A stretch of DNA of 64,000 nt from Clostridium sp. C105KSO13 (GTDB taxonomy: Bacteria > Bacillota > Clostridia > Lachnospirales > Lachnospiraceae), in assembly GCF_001517425.1 (NCBI RefSeq), contig NZ_FBWL01000171.1, positions 62,001-126,000 on the forward strand, read 5' to 3'. Positions 9,560 to 17,083 of this stretch are shown here, piece by piece (within the stretch, counting starts at the first letter, position 1; each line of letters opens with the position of its first letter). The notes beneath the pieces are model-generated. The model worked only from the letters and a program-made list of their open reading frames with translations. It was not told the DNA's origin and ran no database searches. The translations under genes and the position numbers were made by a program.

Positions 9560-10447
9560 CTATGAGAACTGCCTTGATTCAGAACGGTTATGCATGAAAT
9601 TAATTAAATTTTTCATCCCACTTTTCTGCTTTCGATTTTTATTCCAAATCAGACGCGCCCTAATATTCGGGCAGTCAGAAAGAGAGATTGAAACGATGTT
9701 TTCGTTGGGGGACAAAGTACCGTCGTATAGGAAAGTAGATGCTGTATTATTATCCACCAGCTTTTGAATCGTGTGTAACTGGTCTGTATGAAAGAGAATA
9801 TTCGGCTGCAGGTTATACTGTCGAAAGTGCTGGACCACGAAGGAAGTGATGAAGCTGTCCTCATTTAGCAATACCAGAGGAATATTGCGAAGCTGTTCAA
9901 AATTAATCTCAGTCATACAGGCAATTGGGTTTTCGATGGATGTATAGAACAGGACATCCAGATTACATATATCGATGTAGTTAAGTGCTGAAGACAGCGG
10001 TCCGGTACTGGATATGATGGCTGCGTCGAGAGTTCCGTCTGTCACCATGGATTTATTAGTGAGGGAGCCGTGTTCGATAATAGAAAGCCGGGTGTTGGGA
10101 TAAGCCTCCTGCAGATTCGCCAGAATATCTGGAAAAACCAGGGATCCGACCATGGGCGGTAACCCAAGATTGACTGCTGGATTTGTATTTCCCATAGCGG
10201 TCATTTCTGATATAAGCGCATCTGCCTGTTCTAATATATCAGATGCCTTGTCCAGAAAAAGAGTTCCTTCTTTTGTAAGAATAAGTCCTTTGCTCAGCCG
10301 GTAAAACAAAGTAACACCGAATTCGTCTTCCAGATCTTTGATGACATTAGAAAGGCTGGGCTGAGAAACGTGCAATTCATTCGATGCACGGGTTATGTTG
10401 TTATATTTACAAATGGTTTTAAAATACCGGAGCTGCGAGAGTTTCAA
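9560..10447 (-). CDS. LysR-family regulator, divergent from the malonate/tartronate-like cluster
   Basis: 295 aa. The N-terminal winged helix-turn-helix reads LRYFKTICKYNNITRASNEL then HVSQPSLSNVIKDLEDEFG; the rest is a periplasmic-binding-protein-like effector domain. It starts at 10447, after an AGGAGGT site, and is divergent from the CoA-transferase gene with about 112 bases between. That layout suggests it activates the 10.56-17.08 kb cluster in response to the substrate or a pathway intermediate. The effector is unknown. Confidence 0.9.
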   Translation of the reverse strand: MKLSQLRYFKTICKYNNITRASNELHVSQPSLSNVIKDLEDEFGVTLFYRLSKGLILTKEGTLFLDKASDILEQADALISEMTAMGNTNPAVNLGLPPMVGSLVFPDILANLQEAYPNTRLSIIEHGSLTNKSMVTDGTLDAAIISSTGPLSSALNYIDICNLDVLFYTSIENPIACMTEINFEQLRNIPLVLLNEDSFITSFVVQHFRQYNLQPNILFHTDQLHTIQKLVDNNTASTFLYDGTLSPNENIVSISLSDCPNIRARLIWNKNRKQKSGMKNLINFMHNRSESRQFS

Positions 10448-10505
10448 TTCTTTACCTCCTAATAAATATTCTTTTTTGGGATTTTTACATTATATAGCGC
10501 AAAAA

Positions 10506-10527
10506 AATAAATATTCAATAATTTATT
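10506..10527. promoter_or_regulatory. Possible LysR operator (AT-rich inverted repeat)
   Basis: AATAAAT, eight bases, ATTTATT in the divergent region between the LysR gene and the CoA-transferase gene. Spacing and symmetry fit a LysR-type site, but the sequence is pure A/T and could arise by chance. Confidence 0.35.
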
Positions 10528-10559
10528 AAATGTAATGAAAAGTGAAAGGAGAAATGCAA

Positions 10560-12206
10560 ATGATCAGACATGAAGTAACGGAGTGGAATACTCAGCAAAA
10601 GAAGAAAAGGGGGAAAATAGAAACAATCTGCCGCTTTTCAGATGGAAAGGTAATAGGGGAGGATCAGATTGTGGACCTTTTAGAGACGGCAATCCTGCCT
10701 GGCGAGATTGTAGTTATTGAAGGAGATAACCAGAAACAGGCAGTTCAGTTGTCAAAAGGACTTGCTAAGGTAGACTCGAGGAAAGTACATGATTTACATA
10801 TTGTGATGTCTGCTCCGCAAATGGAGGAACATTTGGACATCTTTGAACTGGGAATTGCAAGAGAATTAGATTTTTCCTTTGCTGGGAATTCCGCAAAGAG
10901 ATTACCGATGATGATTAAGGCAGGAACAATTAAGATTGGAGCCATTCATACATATCTTGAACTGTTCAGCCGGCTGTTTACAGACTTAATTCCCAATGTA
11001 TGCCTTTGTGTTGCAGAGGAAGCAGATAAGAACGGTAACCTATATACCGGCAATAACACAGAAGAAACTCCGACGATTATTGAAGCAACTGCATTTAAGA
11101 GTGGCATCGTTATTGTACAGGTAAATAAACTGGTAGATAAGGTTACGAGGATTGATATTCCGGGGGAATGGGTTGATTTTGTAGTGCCCACCAAAGACCC
11201 GAGTATCATTGAACCTCTAATGACCCGTGACCCGCAGTATATCAAAGATGTACATGTGTTGCAGGGTATGATGGCCATAAAGGGAGTCTATGCAAAGCAT
11301 CTTGTAACGAGAATGAATCACGGTATTGGATTTAATACAGCGGCAATTGAGCTTCTGCTTCCGACCTATGGTGAGGAGCTGGGACTCAAAGGCAAAATAT
11401 GTACGAACTGGGTTTCTAATCCAATTCCAGCGATGATTCCGGCAATTGAGACTGGATGGATTAAGAGTGTGGTCGCATTTGGGAGCGAGGCTGGTATGGA
11501 GGATTATGTGGCAGCAAGACCGGATGTGTTTTTTACCGGTATTGACGGAAGTTTGAGGTCTAACCGCTGCTATGCACAGATGGCCGGGCTCTACGGTATG
11601 GATATGTTCACAGGTGCCACCTTACAGATGGATGGGATGGGTAATTCCTCTACTGTCACCAAAGGCAGGATTACAGGCTTTGGCGGAGCGCCGAATATGG
11701 GATCCAATCCTCATGGAAGAAGACATTCCTCATCAGCCTGGGACAGCATGATTCTTGATAGGAGCGACCCGATGGCCAAAGGACGGAAGCTGGTAACACA
11801 GATTGTCCGTACGCAGACTAAGGCCGGGCCAACCTTTGTGGAAGAGCTGGATGCAGTAAAGGTGGGAAAACAGGCAGGCTTCCCGGAGCCCCCTGTAATG
11901 ATTTATGGAGAGGATTTGACACACTTGATTACAGAAGTCGGACTTGGTTATGTATACATGGCTGAAAATGTTGAAGAGAGAAAAAAGATTATTGCGGCAG
12001 TGGCAGGAGACACACCGATTGGACACACGATTACAACTAAGGAGATAAATGAGCTTCGGGCAGCAGGCAAAGTGATGTTCCCTGAGGACTTGGGCATTGA
12101 TCCGTCCGAGGCAACCAGAGAGCGGCTGGCGGCAAAGAACATGAAGGAAATCACAGATTGGTCCGAAGGTCTTTACAAGGCACCGCCGAAATTTAGGAAC
12201 TGGTAA
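10560..12206 (+). CDS. MdcA-like acyl-CoA/ACP transferase (malonate decarboxylase alpha-type)
   Basis: About 548 aa, the usual MdcA length. Diagnostic stretches are FTGIDGSLRSNR, STVTKGRITGFGGAPNMG and PHGRRHSSSAW. In malonate decarboxylase the alpha subunit moves malonate onto the acyl carrier protein in exchange for acetate. None of the partner genes (mdcC carrier, mdcB/D/E/G/H) follows, so it probably works as a stand-alone CoA-transferase; related citrate-lyase alpha subunits can use CoA in place of the carrier. Start ATG 10560 with AAGGAGA seven bases upstream; ATG 10554 is too close. It is the first gene of a five-gene cluster with an acyl-CoA reductase next, so its product is probably a C3 dicarboxyl-CoA that is reduced, not decarboxylated. 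Confidence 0.85.
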   Translation: MIRHEVTEWNTQQKKKRGKIETICRFSDGKVIGEDQIVDLLETAILPGEIVVIEGDNQKQAVQLSKGLAKVDSRKVHDLHIVMSAPQMEEHLDIFELGIARELDFSFAGNSAKRLPMMIKAGTIKIGAIHTYLELFSRLFTDLIPNVCLCVAEEADKNGNLYTGNNTEETPTIIEATAFKSGIVIVQVNKLVDKVTRIDIPGEWVDFVVPTKDPSIIEPLMTRDPQYIKDVHVLQGMMAIKGVYAKHLVTRMNHGIGFNTAAIELLLPTYGEELGLKGKICTNWVSNPIPAMIPAIETGWIKSVVAFGSEAGMEDYVAARPDVFFTGIDGSLRSNRCYAQMAGLYGMDMFTGATLQMDGMGNSSTVTKGRITGFGGAPNMGSNPHGRRHSSSAWDSMILDRSDPMAKGRKLVTQIVRTQTKAGPTFVEELDAVKVGKQAGFPEPPVMIYGEDLTHLITEVGLGYVYMAENVEERKKIIAAVAGDTPIGHTITTKEINELRAAGKVMFPEDLGIDPSEATRERLAAKNMKEITDWSEGLYKAPPKFRNW

Positions 12207-12250: not shown

Positions 12251-13690
12251 ATGGCAGAGCAGCAGGAATCAAATTATGAAGAGTATATGAAAGGTCTGGT
12301 GGCGAGAGCGAGCGCAGCGCAGAAGATTGCAGAGACTTATAATCAGGAGAGGGTTGACGAGTTATGTGAGGCGGTATCTTATGCTGCCTGTAATGAGGAT
12401 TTTAGAAAGAAAGCGGCCAGAATGCTGGTAGAAGAGTCTAAAATGGGCGTATATGAGGACAAATTTAACAAGATTCGCAATAAGGCTATGGGCGTATATC
12501 GTGACATGAAAGGTGAAAAATCTGTAGGCATCATTGAAACAGATTCTGATAAAAATCTGGTAACCTACATAAAACCTATGGGTGTAATTGGAGCTATCAC
12601 TCCAGTTACCAATGGTGAGGCAACCCCAATTGTAAAGACGCTGTGGATATTAAAGAGCAGAAATGCGCTGATCATCTCCCCCCACAGAAGCGGAAAGAAT
12701 ACTGCTGTGTATGTAGTGAATTACTTAAGAAATGTATTAAAACAGATGGGGGCACCAGAGGATCTGGTGATCTGTGTTGATCCGGAGTATGTGGGCCGCC
12801 CATGTGCTGCAGAGATGATGAAGCAGTGTGATTTTCTCGTAACAACTGGTGGATCGGGACTCGTGAAGACTGCGTATTCTTCTGGGACGCCAACGATCGG
12901 TGTCGGAGCCGGCAACGCGACTACTTACATCGATGACACGGCGGATGTTAAAGATGCAGCGGCAAAGATTTGTAAATCTCAGATATTTGATAATTCCTCC
13001 AGCTGTTCTTCAGAGAATAATATCATCGCCAACGAGGCTATATACGATAATTTTGTTGAAGCCTGCAGAAATGAGGGAGGATATCTAATTGAAAATGGTT
13101 CCCCGGAAAAAGAAGCGCTGGTTAAGACGATTTGGCCAGAGTGGCCGGCAAACCATAAGCTTAACCGCAAGATTGCAGCGAGAAGCCTTCAGACTATAGC
13201 AGAGCTTGCAGGGATTACACTTCCGTTCTCAACCAAGTTTCTATTGTTAGAAGAGTTGGATGGCGTTGGAAAGGAGTTTGTGACAACAGGTGAGAAACTG
13301 TGCCCGGTTGTAAGTCTAATCAAGGCAAAGGACTTTGAAGATGGCCTTGAGAAGATGGAGAGAATCCTGGATTATCAGGGAAACGGACATAGTTGCGGTA
13401 TACATACTAAGGATGATTTAAAGATAAATCAGATGGCGCTTCGGATTAAAGTGGCAAGAATTCTGGTAAACCAGCCACAGTCGCTTGGAAACTCGGGTGC
13501 GTACTTCAACGGACTACCGATTACTATGTCTCTTGGATGTGCCACATGGGGCGGAAACAGCACCTGCAGAAATGTGACGTGGAGAGACATCACTAACACG
13601 ACGACAGTCTCCAGACCGGTGGAGGAAATAATTCCGACGGAGGAAAGTCTATACTCAGAAAAAGTGAGAAACATGATATTCCAGCCATAG
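12251..13690 (+). CDS. CoA-acylating aldehyde dehydrogenase (acyl-CoA reductase)
   Basis: 479 aa. It has the acylating ALDH hallmarks: ITPVTNGEATPIVKT, ISPHRSGKN, TTGGSGLVKTAYSSG, GVGAGNATTYID and catalytic cysteine C252 in FDNSSSCSSENN. The usual motif in acetaldehyde enzymes is FDNGTICASEQ; this variant, as I recall, resembles the sulfoacetaldehyde branch, whose substrate sulfoacetyl-CoA is an anionic analogue of malonyl-CoA. The likely reaction is reduction of malonyl- or tartronyl-CoA to the semialdehyde. ATG 12251 follows GAGAGGAGA. It lies 44 bases after the CoA-transferase gene in the same operon. Substrate is inferred. Confidence 0.85.
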   Translation: MAEQQESNYEEYMKGLVARASAAQKIAETYNQERVDELCEAVSYAACNEDFRKKAARMLVEESKMGVYEDKFNKIRNKAMGVYRDMKGEKSVGIIETDSDKNLVTYIKPMGVIGAITPVTNGEATPIVKTLWILKSRNALIISPHRSGKNTAVYVVNYLRNVLKQMGAPEDLVICVDPEYVGRPCAAEMMKQCDFLVTTGGSGLVKTAYSSGTPTIGVGAGNATTYIDDTADVKDAAAKICKSQIFDNSSSCSSENNIIANEAIYDNFVEACRNEGGYLIENGSPEKEALVKTIWPEWPANHKLNRKIAARSLQTIAELAGITLPFSTKFLLLEELDGVGKEFVTTGEKLCPVVSLIKAKDFEDGLEKMERILDYQGNGHSCGIHTKDDLKINQMALRIKVARILVNQPQSLGNSGAYFNGLPITMSLGCATWGGNSTCRNVTWRDITNTTTVSRPVEEIIPTEESLYSEKVRNMIFQP

Positions 13691-13765: not shown

Positions 13766-14665
13766 ATGACAGAATCAATTCATAAATATTTTCAGATTGG
13801 AACCATCCAGTGGATGAGCCATCCGCCAAACAGCTACGAACTTCTGGATTCTGTAAAGACTATAGCGTGTGATGAATTTTTTGATGCGCTGGAAATATCA
13901 AAAATAGCGGATGATGGGACAAGAGAAAAAGTAAAAAACATGTTGGAACAGGCTCACATGAGAGTTTGCTACGGTGCCCAGCCAAGACTCTTGGGACCAG
14001 GATTAAACCCCAATGACATTGCCGAAGAGGAGAGGAAGAAAGCGGAGACTACCTTGATAGAAGCTGTAGACGAGGCAGAGTATCTCGGTGCCAAAGGTAT
14101 AGCTTTCTTGGCTGGAAAATGGCAGGAAGAGACGAAAGATCAGGCATACATCCAGCTCATAAAGACAACAAGAAATGTATGTGACTATGCAGCGTCCAAA
14201 AGCATGATGGTGGAGCTCGAAATCTTCGATTTTGATATGGATAAAGCAGCTCTCATTGGTCCTGCACCTTATGCGGCACAATTTGCGGCAGATATGCGTA
14301 AGACAAATAACAACTTTGGGCTTTTAGTGGATTTATCTCACTTCCCGACGACCTATGAAACATCTAAATTTGTTATTCAAACTCTGCGTCCGTATATTAC
14401 ACATTTCCATATTGGAAACGCCGTGGTTAAGAAAGGATGCGAGGCGTATGGCGATCAGCATCCGAGATTTGGCTTCCAAAATAGTGCTAATGATATAAAG
14501 GAGCTAACGGACTTTTTTACAGTATTGAAGCAGGAGGGCTTCCTTTGTGCAGATAAACCATATGTACTGTCGTTTGAAGTGAAGCCGTGGGGTGAGGAAG
14601 ATTGTGATTTAATTCTTGCTAATACAAAACGAGTTATCAACAGAGCATGGGCACTGGCAGAGTAG
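13766..14665 (+). CDS. Xylose-isomerase-like TIM-barrel protein, hydroxypyruvate-isomerase-type candidate
   Basis: 299 aa. A sugar phosphate isomerase/epimerase (AP endonuclease 2) fold is indicated by metal ligands in order: a glutamate in VELEIFD (E150 or E152), D189 in LLVDLSHF, H215 in THFHIGN and E271 in SFEVKPWG. This is the ligand pattern of hydroxypyruvate isomerase and tagatose epimerase. In this context the best guess is tartronate semialdehyde to hydroxypyruvate, linking the reductase upstream to the dehydrogenase downstream. Other isomerase or epimerase activity is possible. ATG 13766 with AGGAGTGAAGG upstream. Confidence 0.75.
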   Translation: MTESIHKYFQIGTIQWMSHPPNSYELLDSVKTIACDEFFDALEISKIADDGTREKVKNMLEQAHMRVCYGAQPRLLGPGLNPNDIAEEERKKAETTLIEAVDEAEYLGAKGIAFLAGKWQEETKDQAYIQLIKTTRNVCDYAASKSMMVELEIFDFDMDKAALIGPAPYAAQFAADMRKTNNNFGLLVDLSHFPTTYETSKFVIQTLRPYITHFHIGNAVVKKGCEAYGDQHPRFGFQNSANDIKELTDFFTVLKQEGFLCADKPYVLSFEVKPWGEEDCDLILANTKRVINRAWALAE

Positions 14666-14681
14666 GAAGGAGGAGTATAGC

Positions 14682-15650
14682 ATGAAGATTGTTATTCTAG
14701 ATGGATATACAGAGAATCCCGGCGATCTCAGCTGGGAGGAAATGGAAGCACTGGGGGAACTTACGGTATATGACAGAACATCTCTCACAGATACCCAGGA
14801 GACGATTGACAGAGTTGGGGATGCAGAGGTTGTTATTACTAATAAGACCCCCATCCCGAAAGAGGTCTTTGAAAAATGTCTGCACATCAAATATGTAGGC
14901 GTGCTGGCAACCGGGTATAATGTGGTAGACGTTGACACTGCAAAAGCAAAGGGCATCCCGGTTACTAATATTCCCACCTATGGAACCGATGCCGTGGGAC
15001 AGTTTGCCATTGCACTGCTGCTGGAAATCTGCCACCACATAGGACATCACTCAGATGCTGTACATGGAGGCAGATGGAGCAGCAATGACGATTGGTGTTT
15101 CTGGGATTATCCGCTTATCGAACTGGCAGGAAAGACCATGGGTATCGTCGGGTTTGGGCGTATCGGGCAAACAACAGGCCGCATTGCTAAGGCTCTTGGA
15201 ATGAATGTTATTGCAAACGATGAATTTAAGAGCGAGTCCGGAAAAGCCATTGCTGCTTATGTGGACAGAGATACTCTTTTTGCTCAGTCAGATGTTATTG
15301 CACTGCATTGTCCACTATTCCCTGAAACGAAAGGAATGATTAACAGGGGAAATATAGCAAAGATGAAGGAGGGTGTCATCATCTTAAATAACTCTCGCGG
15401 TCCGCTTATCGTAGAACAAGATTTAAAGGACGCACTGGACTCAGGAAAAGTCTATGCAGCTGGCTTGGATGTTGTGTCCACAGAACCAATCAATGCGGAC
15501 AATGTTCTGCTTCACGCAAAGAATTGTTTTATTACACCTCATATTTCTTGGGCCCCAAAGGAAAGCAGACAGCGTTTGATGAATATTGCAGTCAATAATT
15601 TGAAGGCATTTGTGGAAGGTAAACCGGTTAATGTAGTGAATCAACAATAG
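14682..15650 (+). CDS. D-2-hydroxyacid dehydrogenase, hydroxypyruvate/glyoxylate reductase type
   Basis: 322 aa. It has the Rossmann motif GFGRIG (157-162) and the catalytic triad R239 (NNSRG), E268 (STEP) and H287 (TPHISWAPKESRQR). The histidine context HISWA is like that of glycerate dehydrogenases. The enzyme should reduce a 2-oxo acid with NAD(P)H; hydroxypyruvate to D-glycerate is the fit with its neighbours. ATG 14682 follows AAGGAGGAG, 16 bases after the TIM-barrel gene. Substrate assignment is inference. Confidence 0.88.
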   Translation: MKIVILDGYTENPGDLSWEEMEALGELTVYDRTSLTDTQETIDRVGDAEVVITNKTPIPKEVFEKCLHIKYVGVLATGYNVVDVDTAKAKGIPVTNIPTYGTDAVGQFAIALLLEICHHIGHHSDAVHGGRWSSNDDWCFWDYPLIELAGKTMGIVGFGRIGQTTGRIAKALGMNVIANDEFKSESGKAIAAYVDRDTLFAQSDVIALHCPLFPETKGMINRGNIAKMKEGVIILNNSRGPLIVEQDLKDALDSGKVYAAGLDVVSTEPINADNVLLHAKNCFITPHISWAPKESRQRLMNIAVNNLKAFVEGKPVNVVNQQ

Positions 15651-15817: not shown

Positions 15818-17083
15818 ATGGGTATAGCTGGTATATCTCTGTTACTGTTGGTATTGGCAATTTTAATAGGATTTTTCCGAAAGATTAACGTAGGGGTAAT
15901 CGCAATTTTGTTCGCGGTCATTCTTGGGTACGGTAGTGGGTTATTTACAGGAAAGGAAGTCATAGCCGGATTTAGTGGATCGCTGTTTCTGACGCTTGCA
16001 GGAGTGACGCTTCTATTCGCAATTGTACGGTCCAACGGTGCACTGGAACTTCTGATGAAGAAGGTGATCGCGAAGACGGGACGCGCGGTCGTACTGGTAC
16101 CAATCATTGTATTTGTTTTCTCGTGGCTGGTTTCTGCCAGCGGTCCCGGATTGATTCCAACGGCGGCTCTCATCGCGGTACTGGTTATTCCAATCGCTCA
16201 TGAGACGGGTTTTCATCCTGTCATGCTTGCTGCTATCGGCGTACATGCAGCAAACGCCGGACGTTTTACCATGCTGACCGTAGAGGGAAATCTGGTTACG
16301 TCTCTTTTAGCGGAACAGGGGTACACGGAGAATATCATGTTCCCATTGTGTTTAAGTGTAACTATTTTGGCAGTTATCCTCTCTGTGCTTGCATACATAT
16401 GGTATAAAGGTTACAAAGTAAAAGCATCCGACATCTATATTACGGGATTTGAGCAACATTTTACGAGGCAGCAGATTTTGTCTTTAGGTGGTATGCTGGT
16501 GATGGCAGTACTGATTCTCATATTCAAGTATGAGACGGGATTGGCGGCCTTAAGTGTATCTGCAGTACTGATTCTTCTGAAGGTCTGCGATGAAAGTGTT
16601 GCGATTAAAAATGTACCCTGGGGAACAATTATCCTGGTGACAGGAGTTGGCGTTTTGATGAATCTGGTTATTGCGTGCGGTGGTATCGATATACTGTCTG
16701 GTTTCCTTGGAAGTATCATGACACCAGCGACAGCCTCCGCCCTAAGTGGAGTTACTGCAGGTATCTTGTCTTGGTTTAGTTCCACGCTGGGGGTTGTAAT
16801 TCCCACACTGGTACCGACGGTAGGTAATATCATTGAACAGGTGGGAGGTAATGTAACTGTACTGGAAATCGTGGCGGCTATCGGCTTTACTTCCTCCAGC
16901 GCAGGTTTAAGCCCGGCTTCCACAGCAGGTGCTCTGATCATGGGGGCGATTGGCGGTGACTCGGAGTTCTCCCAAAAATATAAAGCAGATAAGCTGTTTG
17001 TGGAATTATTTGCATGGGCGGCAGTCAGTATTGTTTTTATAGCATTAATTGCACTTACAGGGTATTTTCGGTGGTTTGTATAG
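15818..17083 (+). CDS. MatC-like dicarboxylate carrier
   Basis: 421 aa, about 11-12 hydrophobic segments along the whole chain. The N-terminal part (INVGVIAILFAVILGY, EVIAGFSGSLFLTLAGVT, LFAIVRSNG) matches the MatC N-terminal type, known from the rhizobial malonate carrier, in the ion-transporter superfamily. Two re-entrant-like stretches (SASGPGLIPTAAL, SSSAGLSPASTAGAL) are typical of that fold. With an MdcA-like enzyme at the head of the cluster it probably imports a malonate-like dicarboxylate. It lies 167 bases after the dehydrogenase; that gap holds no gene, only a possible CATAC/GTATG hairpin before the AAAGGAG site. Confidence 0.8.
   Translation: MGIAGISLLLLVLAILIGFFRKINVGVIAILFAVILGYGSGLFTGKEVIAGFSGSLFLTLAGVTLLFAIVRSNGALELLMKKVIAKTGRAVVLVPIIVFVFSWLVSASGPGLIPTAALIAVLVIPIAHETGFHPVMLAAIGVHAANAGRFTMLTVEGNLVTSLLAEQGYTENIMFPLCLSVTILAVILSVLAYIWYKGYKVKASDIYITGFEQHFTRQQILSLGGMLVMAVLILIFKYETGLAALSVSAVLILLKVCDESVAIKNVPWGTIILVTGVGVLMNLVIACGGIDILSGFLGSIMTPATASALSGVTAGILSWFSSTLGVVIPTLVPTVGNIIEQVGGNVTVLEIVAAIGFTSSSAGLSPASTAGALIMGAIGGDSEFSQKYKADKLFVELFAWAAVSIVFIALIALTGYFRWFV

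Follow-up and report, generated by a model that had tools for sequence, protein, structure and literature searches.

A putative carrier-independent CoA-transferase of the MdcA type in a candidate tartronate-to-glycerate operon of Clostridia

What does the α subunit of a malonate decarboxylase do in a genome in which the rest of the enzyme is not found? The question is raised by the window, i.e., the whole stretch of 64,000 nucleotides of DNA from the gut-type Clostridia bacterium Clostridium sp. C105KSO13 analysed here, which harbours an mdcA-type gene at positions 10560–12206 of the forward strand. Its reading frame opens with the ATG at 10560, preceded by AGGAG at normal distance, and stops at 12206. 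In a Pfam search PF16957 is matched over 546/546 positions (844 bits, E 4.5e-254), and the cut-off of the NCBIfam equivalog TIGR01110 (mdcA) is just passed (799.8 bits, cut-off 789.15). The nearest solved chains are the malonate decarboxylase α subunits 6mpr (E ~1e-209) and 5vit (~1e-206). From these matches, the active-site residues and a phylogenetic tree, the protein is proposed to be an acetyl-CoA:tartronate (malonate-type) CoA-transferase.

The mdcA gene is the first of five on the same strand, which are separated by 44, 75, 16 and 167 bases. It is followed by genes for a SauS/SucD-like CoA-acylating aldehyde dehydrogenase (12251–13690, +), a putative tartronyl-CoA reductase; a xylose-isomerase-like TIM barrel protein (13766–14665, +; PF01261), a candidate tartronate-semialdehyde/hydroxypyruvate isomerase; a D-2-hydroxyacid dehydrogenase (14682–15650, +; PF02826 and PF00389), the proposed hydroxypyruvate reductase; and a MatC/CitMHS-type dicarboxylate carrier (15818–17083, +; PF07158 and PF03600), which would take up the substrate. 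A LysR-type regulator (9560–10447, −; PF00126 and PF03466) diverges from the operon. The divergent promoter region in between (10448–10559, no strand assigned) was read directly and contains the AGGAG ribosome-binding site ahead of the ATG at 10560; a promoter and terminator scan did no better than with shuffled sequence. All five genes show a pN/pS of 0.12–0.30 against their counterparts at the related locus L092, with synonymous sites saturated. This indicates purifying selection, and therefore the operon is probably in use.

The host assembly (3.2 Mb, 171 contigs, 98.18% complete) was searched genome-wide for the decarboxylase complex with PF16957, PF06857, PF01874 and TIGR03133. PF16957 matches a single protein, the window MdcA itself, while neither an MdcC-type carrier protein (PF06857) nor CitG/MdcB-type prosthetic-group synthesis (PF01874) is matched anywhere in the host genome. 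The MdcD model TIGR03133 retrieves only two generic carboxyltransferases (83 and 62 bits, cut-off 278), and the Pfam domains of the operon genes include no MdcD or MdcE decarboxylase subunit. As a positive control, E. coli was matched by the PF16957, PF06857 and PF01874 searches. A gap in the assembly could hide one gene, but hardly all of mdcB, mdcC, mdcD, mdcE, mdcG and mdcH; moreover, the pair of MdcA and dehydrogenase genes recurs without mdc neighbours in relatives. The initial annotation, which had described a full-length MdcA without carrier protein or decarboxylase subunits beside an acyl-CoA reductase, is borne out by these searches: genes of the mdcC, mdcD or citG type do not appear above cut-off, and the four family searches revealed no mdc locus that lacks an mdcA of its own. 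Since the window MdcA scores above the curated threshold set for “malonate decarboxylase subunit alpha”, automated pipelines will credit such anaerobes with a malonate decarboxylation whose genes they lack.

Scanning a single genome of each species yielded 80 MdcA loci, and in five genomes, the window and four other Clostridia, the MdcA and dehydrogenase genes are adjacent. The MdcAs of L004, L005 and L006 are 78–83% identical to the window protein and have the same dehydrogenase adjoining, and that of L092 (genome G138, same family, nearly closed) is 86% identical. L092 carries all five operon genes plus the LysR gene in the order of the window, except for two genes inserted before the carrier; the insertion (L092:14236-16710) separates the MatC carrier from the 2-hydroxyacid dehydrogenase and codes for a histidine phosphatase as well as a dehydratase of the IlvD/EDD type. 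A LysR gene adjoins mdcA in 5/5 loci (41–60% identity), and orthologues of the MatC-type carrier are found at L092 and L005 (62–64%). The isomerase and the 2-hydroxyacid dehydrogenase directly follow the pair in three loci (window, L092 and L006). At L005 the LysR gene has a 2-hydroxyacid dehydrogenase as its neighbour, and a different contig of this genome carries the isomerase along with another 2-hydroxyacid dehydrogenase. The L004 genome yielded no isomerase; here the contig breaks off soon after the dehydrogenase gene, and parts of the assembly may be missing. In two genomes a 610-residue flavoprotein, GltD/NuoF-like by eye, adjoins the operon (L092:4093-7658 region; L005:12420-14252), and at L092:4093-7658 it is followed by a 579-residue iron-sulfur protein resembling hydrogenase. 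Possibly, these proteins supply redox equivalents for reductive steps.

The structure of Pseudomonas MdcA, for which malonate-binding and catalytic residues as well as the contacts to MdcC have been named (PMC5534430), allows a closer look at the transferase. In Pseudomonas numbering, Asn59, Tyr134, Asn258, Ile261, Asn292, Phe312, Arg341, Gln345, Gly381 and Arg228 are unchanged in 5/5 stand-alone MdcAs. Conversely, at the positions contacting MdcC the same proteins lack Phe424, have Val or Ile for Glu466 and carry Asp for Ile490, a loss of the carrier interface that is partly common to the sister clade described below; in Pseudomonas MdcA, replacing F424 by Ala breaks the hetero-tetramer (PMC5534430). 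Compared with family I CoA-transferases, which employ a covalent Glu, the protein is matched in Pfam by PF16957 only and agrees at its active-site positions with carrier-type MdcA, where an acidic catalyst is not present (PMC5534430).

With the malonate-binding residues all unchanged, malonate itself fits the site. This counts for a reading in which malonate is converted via malonyl-CoA and malonate semialdehyde to 3-hydroxypropionate, the last reduction being performed by the 2-hydroxyacid dehydrogenase or another enzyme, and the isomerase serving a separate purpose. We regard this reading as unlikely, if still worth serious attention. Speaking against it, among 140 positions that hardly vary in 80 other MdcAs, four carry a different, fixed residue in the stand-alone clade, and 3/4 of them (F226M, L257M and H294I) lie at most two residues from an active-site residue (hypergeometric p ~0.03, for five sequences that are related to each other). 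These three second-shell changes hint at an altered specificity.

A maximum-likelihood tree calculated from 53 MdcAs unites all five stand-alone proteins in a single long-stemmed clade (100/100), the sister group (100/98) of MdcAs encoded in biotin/Na+-pump decarboxylase clusters. In these clusters, MdcA is followed by carboxyltransferase, OAD-γ, biotin carrier and OAD-β genes (gene families checked in L024), and they would apparently produce a carrier-free, Na+-pumping malonyl-CoA decarboxylase. Such pump-type clusters are distributed among Lachnospiraceae and other anaerobes (L018, L022, L024, L025, L030, L031, L033, L034, L036, L037, L039, L041, L043, L086, L087 and L088). No carrier-protein gene was seen in the L024 cluster, and loss of the acyl carrier may therefore predate the stand-alone clade. 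The earlier description of the window protein as a stand-alone transferase is supported with respect to CoA transfer and reduction, with the qualification that the departure from the carrier is not unique to this locus.

The arrangement in the sister clade also suggests that the window MdcA might provide malonyl-CoA for a biotin/Na+-pump decarboxylase with genes elsewhere in the genome, the operon neighbours being unrelated, and the host genome indeed has one OAD-β pump. This pump is found with an OadA/PycB-like protein and is not adjacent to mdcA, and the carboxyltransferase of the host OAD complex shares only 41% identity with its L024 counterpart, whereas malonate-type ones are 69–96% identical to the L024 reference; by this measure the host complex is not of the malonate type. 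Moreover, synteny binds the stand-alone MdcA to a reductase in five genomes, and we consider a partnership with the pump highly improbable.

The nature of this reductase narrows the range of acyl groups. The best alignments of the protein encoded at 12251–13690 are those to Clostridium kluyveri SucD and to the aldehyde dehydrogenase domains of AdhE. In SucD, Lys70 and Ser243 hold the distal carboxylate (PMC10249356), and these residues, as well as the catalytic Cys242 and His364, are kept in the window dehydrogenase as Lys78, Ser253, Cys252 and His380. Their retention suggests an acyl group that ends in an anion; the Lys/Ser pair is also kept in SauS-like relatives, and hence malonyl, tartronyl and sulfoacetyl groups are not separated by it. 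Naming the substrate from close dehydrogenase relatives in other Clostridia (47–50% identity) was likewise abandoned, as these occur in unrelated contexts, one cluster looking like transketolase/transaldolase.

The best NCBIfam model for the dehydrogenase is SauS (NF047625), which raises the possibility that the acid is another malonate analogue such as sulfoacetate, the nearest relative being sulfoacetaldehyde dehydrogenase. The score of 467 bits falls below the SauS cut-off of 600, and sulfoacetaldehyde is not an expected substrate of either an aldose-ketose isomerase or a D-2-hydroxyacid dehydrogenase. The MdcA site, in addition, binds a carboxylate through Arg341 (PMC5534430). A sulfoacetate-type substrate is therefore very unlikely. 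The initial annotation had proposed a repurposed CoA-transferase whose product is reduced, and the lack of complex genes, the kept malonate site, the altered carrier docking and the carboxylate-binding reductase adjoining in five genomes all support this proposal. CoA transfer followed by reduction appears quite probable as the biochemical theme of the operon.

The two enzymes encoded downstream bear on the substrate. The predicted model of the isomerase (pLDDT 88) has the fold of sugar isomerases and epimerases (Z up to 26) and shows no preference among the many sugar isomerases and 3-epimerases that it resembles, and an assignment based on this fold was rejected as it did not separate substrates. 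No relative of solved structure was found with the single sequence, and a profile gave weak sugar epimerase matches. The protein belongs to the wider PF01261 superfamily and is not matched by the Hyi model TIGR03234 at E 0.001. Glu152, Asp189, His215 and Glu271 are invariant in its alignment and presumably form the metal site expected for the superfamily. The dehydrogenase at 14682–15650, the start codon of which was checked, carries both D-2-hydroxyacid dehydrogenase domains; its closest solved chain is 5tx7, followed by phosphoglycerate dehydrogenases and glyoxylate/hydroxypyruvate reductases.

An aldose-ketose isomerase requires a 2-hydroxy aldehyde, which is obtained from tartronate (hydroxymalonate), but not from malonate. 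Malonate semialdehyde has no 2-hydroxyl group, and a D-2-hydroxyacid dehydrogenase is not the enzyme expected to reduce it. Since isomerase and dehydrogenase fit a 2-hydroxy semialdehyde rather than malonate semialdehyde, tartronate is the likeliest substrate and ranks ahead of malonate; taken by itself, its assignment to the operon is tentative, at somewhat less than an even chance. The reductive fate of the transferase product had been anticipated by the initial annotation and is supported, but the downstream enzymes that point to tartronate instead of malonate had been overlooked. The malonate route draws further on the MatC-type carrier in the operon, on the L005 isomerase lying outside the cluster, and on malonyl-CoA being a good structural analogue of the sulfoacetyl-CoA used by SauS. 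Yet, it leaves without a role an isomerase that is in the operon in 3/4 loci whose contigs continue, and the operon encodes no recognisable 3-hydroxypropionate dehydrogenase.

Outside the operon, isomerase and dehydrogenase form a module of their own, the two genes following each other on the same strand less than 300 bp apart in 31/40 loci. Within 6 kb of the module, 5/40 loci encode a glycerate kinase, which belongs to PF02595 in L118, L119 and L124 and to the unrelated DUF4147/MOFRL family in L171 and, judged by similarity, in L173. An HpcH/HpaI aldolase with about equal scores for the HpaI and GarL models is encoded directly upstream in L170. These neighbours fit D-glycerate as the product of the module. 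Split transketolases within 6 kb of the isomerase (10/40 loci) and glycoside hydrolases among the neighbours do not obviously fit glycerate; the module may therefore serve more than one pathway, and the isomerase could act on another ketose. Loci harbouring the module are spread across Clostridia (L113-L130, L170-L186 and window 13766-15650), some beside sugar transport genes, and at L176:6160-8822 the genes directly upstream code for an amidohydrolase and for a member of the 3-hydroxyaspartate aldolase family that resembles BhcC. The isomerase is present in 24/397 genomes of the family and 24/391 of the class. With a stand-alone MdcA in only two of the 24 isomerase-bearing family genomes, it is far too widespread to mark the transferase by co-occurrence and was discarded for this purpose.

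From gene content, the missing complex, the residues, the carrier interface, the clade and the recurrence of the operon, all of which are read from sequence, we infer reactions, substrate and direction as follows. The MatC carrier would import a malonate-type dicarboxylate, most likely tartronate, and the MdcA-type transferase would convert tartronate and acetyl-CoA to tartronyl-CoA and acetate. The acylating dehydrogenase would then reduce tartronyl-CoA with NAD(P)H to tartronate semialdehyde, the TIM barrel protein would isomerize the semialdehyde to hydroxypyruvate, and the 2-hydroxyacid dehydrogenase would reduce the latter with NAD(P)H to D-glycerate. A glycerate kinase encoded elsewhere in the genome would finally deliver phosphoglycerate to lower glycolysis, regenerating acetyl-CoA. 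The host has one glycerate kinase, located at another locus (G000 C147, L142); its neighbours, identified by the starts of their sequences, resemble PdxA2, DUF1537 kinases and lactate racemases, and the locus appears to be of the threonate/erythronate type. Counted by oxidation states, tartronate would accept a net two electrons on its way to acetate and CO2, and its conversion would also represent a small fermentation electron sink. The series of reactions from a carrier-independent, MdcA-derived CoA-transferase to D-glycerate is the best overall explanation of the locus, with about even chances of being correct.

CoA-transferases and acylating dehydrogenases are reversible, and MatC-type carriers could also export. 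The same enzymes might therefore oxidise glycerate via hydroxypyruvate and tartronate semialdehyde to tartronyl-CoA, save the thioester as acetyl-CoA and release tartronate. Hydroxypyruvate reduction, however, strongly favours glycerate, the excretion of tartronate brings a fermenter little gain, and no result of the analysis favours this direction over uptake. We consider the reverse course quite improbable and retain the uptake and reduction of tartronate as the preferred reading.

The steps from tartronate semialdehyde via hydroxypyruvate and glycerate to the kinase have been described in an anaerobic dichloroacetate fermenter (PMC8092247), and in the synthetic TaCo pathway tartronyl-CoA is made by an engineered glycolyl-CoA carboxylase and reduced towards glycerate (PMC10729300). 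In the literature searched on tartronyl-CoA, tartronate catabolism and malonate CoA-transferase, with subscription journals mostly outside the search, no account of an operon of this kind was found, and tartronyl-CoA was met solely in the synthetic pathway. It is conceivable, though at less than even chances, that the operon constitutes a natural route of tartronate growth or disposal, composed of a carrier-free MdcA transferase, a reductase dedicated to tartronyl-CoA and a hydroxypyruvate isomerase outside the Hyi family. If so, tartronate would gain a fermentation route, and both a transferase forming tartronyl-CoA and a reductase acting on it would already exist in nature, functions for which synthetic CO2 fixation has had to rely on borrowed or engineered enzymes. 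MdcA would be seen leaving its carrier protein and entering a reductive pathway.

Compared with known systems, the window MdcA shares with the malonate decarboxylase subunit (PF16957, TIGR01110; 5vit) its full length, a mean identity of ~55% to carrier-type MdcAs and the malonate site, and differs in the altered carrier contacts, in forming a clade of its own and in adjoining an acyl-CoA reductase, with no MdcC, MdcD or CitG found. The sister-clade MdcAs (L018, L024, L030 and others) are likewise probable CoA-transferases, the L024 cluster being without a carrier gene; theirs precede decarboxylase and pump genes, whereas the stand-alone MdcA precedes a reductase. The dehydrogenase resembles SucD and SauS in its catalytic Cys and His and in the Lys70/Ser243 pair, and is set apart by missing the SauS cut-off and by a different genomic partner. 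The Hyi-Ghr-Gck leg of dichloroacetate and glyoxylate catabolism (PMC8092247) would run through the same intermediates from tartronate semialdehyde to phosphoglycerate, but obtains the semialdehyde from glyoxylate carboligase, and the window isomerase is not of the Hyi type. Finally, the TaCo pathway (PMC10729300) has in common with the proposed route the tartronyl-CoA intermediate and its reduction towards glycerate; TaCo carboxylates glycolyl-CoA, whereas here the transferase would load free tartronate.
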